This document shows positions 21,538 through 22,980 of a stretch of DNA of 64,000 bases, in pieces. A program made the translations under genes and the position numbers. Below the pieces are notes generated by a model. The model did not search any database. It saw only the letters and a program-made list of their open reading frames with translations, and had not been told where the DNA came from. Source of the DNA: Actinomycetota bacterium (lineage in GTDB: Bacteria; Actinomycetota; Acidimicrobiia; Acidimicrobiales; MedAcidi-G1); NCBI GenBank assembly GCA_018673475.1, contig JABHCN010000006.1, positions 1 through 64,000 on the forward strand, read 5' to 3'. The stretch's first letter is position 1. Each line of letters begins with the position of its first letter.

Positions 21538-21918
21538 TCAGGCTCCCAGGAACTCGTAGAGCTTCTCTCTGGGCCGGCCTACACAGGCCTCGAGTGGACC
21601 ATCTGAGTCCAGGTCTCCCCGGATCAGGACCGGTCGCTGCATCAGCGCCTTGCGCCGTGCCAGCAACTCAACGACGGCATCGGCGTTGTCGACGTAGTCA
21701 TCGGCGACAAGGTCCAGCTTCTTGAACTGCGAGTCCTTTCGAACCAGGTCCTCGACGGGGCCGTCCATGCCTGCAACGACGCGCCGCAGGAGCGACTCGT
21801 CGGGAGGCTGCTTCATGTATAGGACTACGTCTACGTCAACGCCCAACTCCTCGGCGACCGCCAAGGCCTTCGTGGACGAGTTTCAATGCGGGTTGTGGAA
21901 GACGGTCACGCCTGCCAT
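21538..21918 (-). CDS. ArsC-like thioredoxin-fold selenoprotein candidate (in-frame UGA at the catalytic Cys position)
   Basis: Read from ATG 21918 with UGA decoded as selenocysteine, this gives 126 residues, normal for ArsC/YffB/Spx proteins. The N-terminus VTVFHNPH-U-NSSTKAL matches the ArsC active-site loop (known form HNPxC...), and the UGA is codon 12, the same number as the catalytic Cys12 of E. coli plasmid ArsC. The C-terminal part retains family residues, including LVRKDSQFK and the RPVLIRG block. AGGAG stands six bases before the ATG. A SECIS-like hairpin lies inside the gene just after the UGA. A conventional reading would start at TTG 21864 and lose the whole active site. Arsenate reduction itself is not shown; the family also includes other thiol-dependent reductases. 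The organism would need selA, selB, selC and selD elsewhere. Confidence 0.82.
21849..21866 (-). promoter_or_regulatory. Bacterial SECIS element candidate
   Basis: On the mRNA, 23 nt after the UGA (21885-21883), the 7-bp stem CCUUGGC/GCCGAGG closes on a GGUC loop (21859-21856). One pair is U-G, the rest are Watson-Crick. Two A-U pairs extend the stem below a 2x2 internal loop. From memory, the E. coli fdhF SECIS also presents GGUC at its tip, with the G and U contacted by SelB, and the distance lies inside the known bacterial range. The stem lies in coding sequence, as bacterial SECIS elements do. Confidence 0.75.
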
Positions 21919-22013
21919 CTGGTTCTCCTGTCTGGTGGTCGGCCCCTGTCAGACCGTACCCGCCTGCGACGACCACATCCCAGGATGCACACGTCGCCGG
22001 GCGGGCTGTGTCC

Positions 22014-22980
<967 letters not shown>

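Follow-up and report, generated by a model that had tools for sequence, protein, structure and literature searches.

A hairpin located shortly after an in-frame UGA of an ArsC-like gene is very probably (we would say about 95%) a bacterial SECIS element, at whose GGUC tip SelB would deliver selenocysteine (Sec) to codon 12 as the active-site nucleophile. This reading is drawn from sequence comparison: the hairpin is conserved with compensatory changes among homologues that carry the UGA, and is absent from those that carry a Cys codon in its place. The gene lies in a 64,000-nucleotide stretch of DNA, hereafter the window, and its features are listed in Table 1. The original prediction, made from this stretch alone, had named the UGA, the stem, the GGUC tip and their spacing of 23 nt, and all these sequence details proved exact.

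Table 1. Positions of the selenocysteine-related features in the window
Feature	Position	Strand	Details
Sec-containing ArsC-family gene, 126 residues	21538..21918	(-)	ATG 21918-21916, terminator TGA 21540-21538; Pfam ArsC PF03960 1.7e-9
AGGAG, likely ribosome-binding site	21925..21929	(-)	six bases before ATG, seen in sequence
In-frame UGA, read as selenocysteine (predicted), codon 12	21883..21885	(-)	aligns with catalytic Cys12 of E. coli ArsC (phmmer, 1jzw)
SECIS hairpin (predicted)	21849..21866	(-)	CCUUGGC 21866-21860, GGUC loop 21859-21856, GCCGAGG 21855-21849; covariation and clade conservation

The encoded protein starts with MAGVTVFHNPH-UGA-NSSTKALAVAEELGVDV... and reached 38.3 bits against Pfam ArsC (cut-off 24). 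With phmmer it matched E. coli ArsC 1jzw at 9.4e-12, the UGA residue standing opposite Cys12. The UxxS pattern of selenoproteins was present as U12-N-S-S15, with Ser at +3, UGA at the catalytic Cys of ArsC and sel genes in the genome. In the AlphaFold2 model, built with 26 homologues, mean pLDDT was 90.8 and the best PDB matches were arsenate reductases and Spx; across the 26 aligned homologues, H8, N9, residue 12, S15, R60, R95 and G114-R115-P116 were invariant. E. coli ArsC (1jzw and others) has the same fold as the model (TM 0.77 by query length) with R60 and R95 conserved, but differs in having Cys12 where the window protein would have Sec, at 25% overall identity. Arsenate as substrate is unproven, because the score against TIGR00014 (glutaredoxin-dependent arsenate reductase equivalog) was 68 bits, below the cut-off of 106.05; three relatives with hairpins of type A or B (see below) scored 63.5, 87.2 and 92.7 bits.

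Within the window, the stem CCUUGGC/GCCGAGG comprises seven pairs, one of them U-G. It follows the UGA after a gap of 16 nt and its loop after 23 nt, which puts the first loop base at +24. The E. coli fdhF SECIS also displays GGUC at its tip, where SelB contacts the G and U; its upper stem is of similar length and its loop lies some four nt nearer to the UGA, while the window hairpin has no bulged U in the stem. For bacterial SECIS elements in general, the available part of one source gives a loop of 3-9 nt, an upper stem of 4-16 bp, a UGA-loop distance of 16-37 nt, an energy of -7.5 kcal/mol or lower, and a G at loop position one or two, which G or U often follows (PMC13188914). The window hairpin lies within every one of these constraints (4-nt loop, 7 bp, G first, 23 nt, -10.7 kcal/mol alone). 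It was also present within the minimum free energy structure when the region was folded with RNAfold, the check that the original prediction had proposed, though the 56-nt stretch, at -19.1 kcal/mol, was unexceptional in energy (z -0.54; 60 of 200 shuffles did equally well), and the z-score was accordingly dropped as support. An Rfam scan of the window returned one tRNA-Ala elsewhere and no match at the hairpin.

We then re-coded the 20 codons after the window UGA synonymously in 5000 trials, following the codon use of seven window genes. The seven-pair stem with GGUC at the same place was recovered in 15 of the 5000 re-codings, and any hairpin satisfying the published rules in 658 (13%). This suggests that the hairpin of the single window sequence is moderately unlikely by chance, which is short of proof of a SECIS, and for this reason the case rests on the homologues. 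The original prediction regarded position, stem length and loop as agreeing independently with Sec at codon 12; the SECIS reading was upheld, whereas "independently" is slightly strong for a single gene when 13% of re-codings give a consensus hairpin.

Homologues were searched in 395 genomes of the class (152 matched), in 48 genomes of the family (45 matched) and in a genome contig collection, from which the best 80 of 331 matches were taken; as these are the top-scoring part, the proportion of UGA genes should not be taken as a frequency. From the class genomes, we used all matches flagged with TGA (five of which proved to have Cys at codon 12) and 33 without an inner stop, leaving out weaker Cys matches and those with only TAG; the family genomes contributed 21 new loci. 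Altogether, 211 loci were obtained; over the gene, 185 are distinct, with UGA at codon 12 in 147 and Cys (TGC/TGT) in 38. Among the family genomes, 43 close matches with E values of 3e-39 or better were listed, and each has one in-frame TGA. The best named relatives are metagenome-assembled genomes of marine Acidimicrobiia.

Hairpins with at least five pairs around GGUC in the register of the window were called type A. They were found in 109 of the 147 UGA homologues and in 0 of the 38 Cys homologues; the stem was thus kept in UGA genes and missing from Cys genes, so that neither of the two refuting outcomes named in the original prediction occurred. On a tree built by a quick method from 106 columns, with the hairpin-coding residues removed and many forks left open, all 110 UGA members of clade A were grouped together. 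L191 alone among them, with four pairs and GGUC, falls outside the type A rule, and it was counted with clade A in the tree, energy and terminator counts only. With L191 included, 101 of 110 members pass the energy threshold of -7.5. In type A, 761 of 763 base-pair cells were standard pairs, numbers which lean towards pairing due to the five-pair rule, compared to 223-526 when the partner strand was slid by 1-3 positions. In the Cys homologues, 151 of 266 cells were paired in the same register and no sequence had all seven pairs. An outer stem proposed by RNAfold (+5..+10 with +38..+43) was paired in 495 of 654 cells versus 238-326 when slid; its pair 6-42 was mostly unpaired and the rest hardly covaried.

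Compensatory changes were seen at two levels. The third bases of codons 7 and 10 after the UGA, which are largely synonymous, were combined as G-C in 85 genes, G-U in 4, A-U in 20 and A-C in 0 (Fisher 3e-18, uncorrected for kinship). They change 8 and 11 times on the tree, both together in nearly every draw of pairs; the sign test on the tree gave p 0.25 from 3 independent pairs on starred branches, too few for significance. At the pair +19/+32 we observed U-A 94, U-G 2, G-C 12 and C-G 1 times, and the amino acids follow the pair (Leu...Glu, Val...Thr/Ala and Leu...Gly). Codon choice within the stem was close to fixed. Ala is encoded there by GCG in 108 of 109 type A genes and Val by GTC in 109 of 109; in the remainder of these genes, GCG accounts for 188 of 775 Ala codons and GTC for 515 of 1196 Val codons. 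G was first in the loop in all 109 type A sequences, GGUC itself being part of the defining rule. Most bacterial SECIS elements have been predicted from how a single gene folds, since covariation is masked by the coding constraint; the many close homologues compared here reveal compensatory change at both the synonymous and the amino-acid level.

A sister clade of 18 UGA genes carries another hairpin, CAAUGC-CGUGM-GCAUUG (type B), whose loop starts at +18, six nt nearer to the UGA than in type A. Its cells were paired in 108 of 108 cases, whereas the Cys genes reached 82 of 228 and the type A genes 221 of 654. The Asn codon of its stem is AAT in 17 genes and AGT in 1, and the Ile codon is ATT in 18 of 18, unlike the window genes, which favour AAC (83%) and ATC (90%). 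As there is little covariation, type B rests mainly on this synonymous constraint. While type A does not differ from the published consensus, the type B hairpin taken by itself is less stable (-4.9 to -8.4 kcal/mol); 7 of 18 pass -7.5, one of them through another hairpin. These counts exclude L079, which the automatic rule had assigned to type B (giving 19 genes instead of 18) and which was removed because it was placed in a distant group.

By the two rules, 19 of the 147 UGA homologues had neither hairpin, and 18 of these came from the distant group with the motif HNPG-U-GKSRG. Within this group ("other", 19 sequences: L070, L073-L085 and L087-L091), no single common hairpin was found by a simple stem rule or RNAfold. 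A GGUC loop occurs at +18 in L073 and L079, and in L085 there is a stem of eight pairs whose loop does not begin with G. Such a distant UGA gene occurs as a second ArsC-like gene in many genomes of the window's family; for L087-L091 and for G336:C30, G169:C30, G211:C22, G428:C22 and others, it shares a contig with the first gene, from which it is 2 to 17 kb away, and lies on the opposite strand. A single match was obtained in the window's genome.

Types A and B form neighbouring clades on the tree, which requires two changes for the states A, B and other among UGA genes, and ten for Sec versus Cys. Three Cys genes are nested in UGA clades, L095 in A (a less sure placement, because it sits on a long branch) and L096 and L098 in B, and all three are without a hairpin. 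In two of their genomes (G040 and G019) no tRNA-Sec was seen, while the third (G340) has one. It seems likely that one family, with its UGA codon fixed, holds the signal in two registers, the SECIS having either moved by six nt or been built twice, and that residues 17-23 follow the RNA (ALAVAE/AVAVAT in A, NAVRIA/NAVSIA in B); we consider the two statements jointly as good bets. If the two-register reading is true, the nested Cys lineages would represent natural before-and-after sets for the tolerance of SelB to loop sequence and distance.

As for the selenium machinery, the window's genome (2.04 Mb, 78 contigs) holds a tRNA-Sec with anticodon UCA and adjacent selA and selB genes, SelB having a C-terminal wing_3 domain. 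Its selD (L127, G000:C3:22669-23589) is a UGA gene too, with the UGA in SHGAGUGCK. Inspected by eye, selD has a hairpin with a GCGAA loop, so that the same SelB would need to accept tips besides GGUC. Among the 395 class genomes, 246 have tRNA-Sec above the cut-off. It was detected in 59 of 65 genomes with the UGA gene versus 19 of 38 with the Cys gene (Fisher 7e-6), and the 6 of 65 UGA genomes that show none at the cut-off are all drafts. We considered tRNA-Sec presence as a sharp predictor and gave this up, as half of the Cys genomes have the tRNA as well and the association is only partial.

Following the established pathway, it can be inferred that SelB would bind the GGUC tip through its C-terminal winged-helix domain and thus hold Sec-tRNA(Sec) tethered nearby when the ribosome arrives at the UGA codon 12 of the ArsC-like mRNA. 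SelB would then hand over selenocysteine at this codon, and the nucleophile of the thioredoxin-fold reductase would be Sec in place of Cys. If, instead, the hairpin were a by-product of GC-rich coding and the conserved ALAVAE, with some other signal aiding UGA recoding, then a consensus hairpin in 658 of 5000 re-codings and the shuffle z of -0.54 would be in keeping with this. The near-invariant synonymous codons, used far more than elsewhere in the same genes, the covarying third bases, the compensatory amino-acid changes and the absence of the hairpin from Cys homologues all speak against such an origin, which we hold to be very improbable.

Equally improbable is an altered genetic code or a suppressor tRNA by which the UGA would specify Cys, Trp or some other residue. 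A Cys-inserting tRNA would fit the Cys aligned at this position in homologues, but the genome has tRNA-Sec together with a full sel set, and the conserved hairpin is needed for SelB and not for a suppressor. Moreover, 86 of 128 genes of type A or B (L191 counted) terminate with UGA, so that recoding is local. There is a still smaller chance that the gene is a pseudogene, contains a sequencing error or encodes a shorter protein. The last of these corresponds to the listed table-11 ORF, which opens at TTG 21864 (108 aa), downstream of the UGA, so that the active site is missed in a plain ORF list. However, the UGA is kept in 147 distinct homologues, the frame and residues ahead of it are conserved, and the confident whole-protein model agrees with ArsC structures, the first strand included. 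The SECIS reading is therefore preferred.

An arsenate reductase with Sec and a predicted SECIS was published as early as 2005, from Sargasso Sea reads (14 sequences, with arsenate reductase named in the legend of Figure 3; PMC1088965), so this kind of protein is already known. It was described as a UxxS selenoprotein in the Global Ocean Sampling data in 2008 (PMC2398784), and Sec arsenate reductase is listed in reviews of 2022 and 2026. As far as the available parts of the ocean surveys go, their ArsC (COG1393/Pfam ArsC) resembles ours in having Sec at the catalytic position, Ser three residues on and a SECIS just after the UGA. It differs in coming from metagenome reads, while the genes described here sit in Acidimicrobiia genomes with sel genes, and in that the element is tested here through covariation and against Cys homologues. 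This work adds the Acidimicrobiia host, which places a marine selenoprotein family in this class; it also adds a test by covariation, a control with Cys homologues and a second register. A limited search of the literature on Acidimicrobiia selenoproteins gave no title on an Acidimicrobiia ArsC; beyond this search, absence from print is claimed neither for that protein nor for a two-register SECIS. The homologues show a predicted SECIS that is kept, apparently rebuilt six bases away, or lost once cysteine replaces selenocysteine. Since one gene offers two hairpin designs, each at its own distance, the loop bases and spacings accepted by SelB become directly testable.

Several isolated occurrences were also noted. 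In 396 genomes of the phylum, the sole UGA match outside the class among the matches listed was L234 (G624), the only one inspected of 20 loci from this search, all of which were kept out of the counts. Neither the type A nor the type B hairpin is present in it; by eye, CGUGAG-CGCC-CUCACG can be drawn, its loop at +15, which may be a third register. Three loci labelled Verrucomicrobiales (L191), Verrucomicrobiia (L201) and Akkermansiaceae (L207) share the UGA gene and its GGUC loop with Acidimicrobiia, and represent either mis-binned contigs or transfer. Finally, a P-II (GlnB/GlnK) gene is found at 22014-22349 (-) of the window, 95 nt upstream of the ArsC-like gene and on the same strand, and a P-II-like motif is present at most 900 bases upstream in 21 of the 98 type A loci that extend far enough to be checked.
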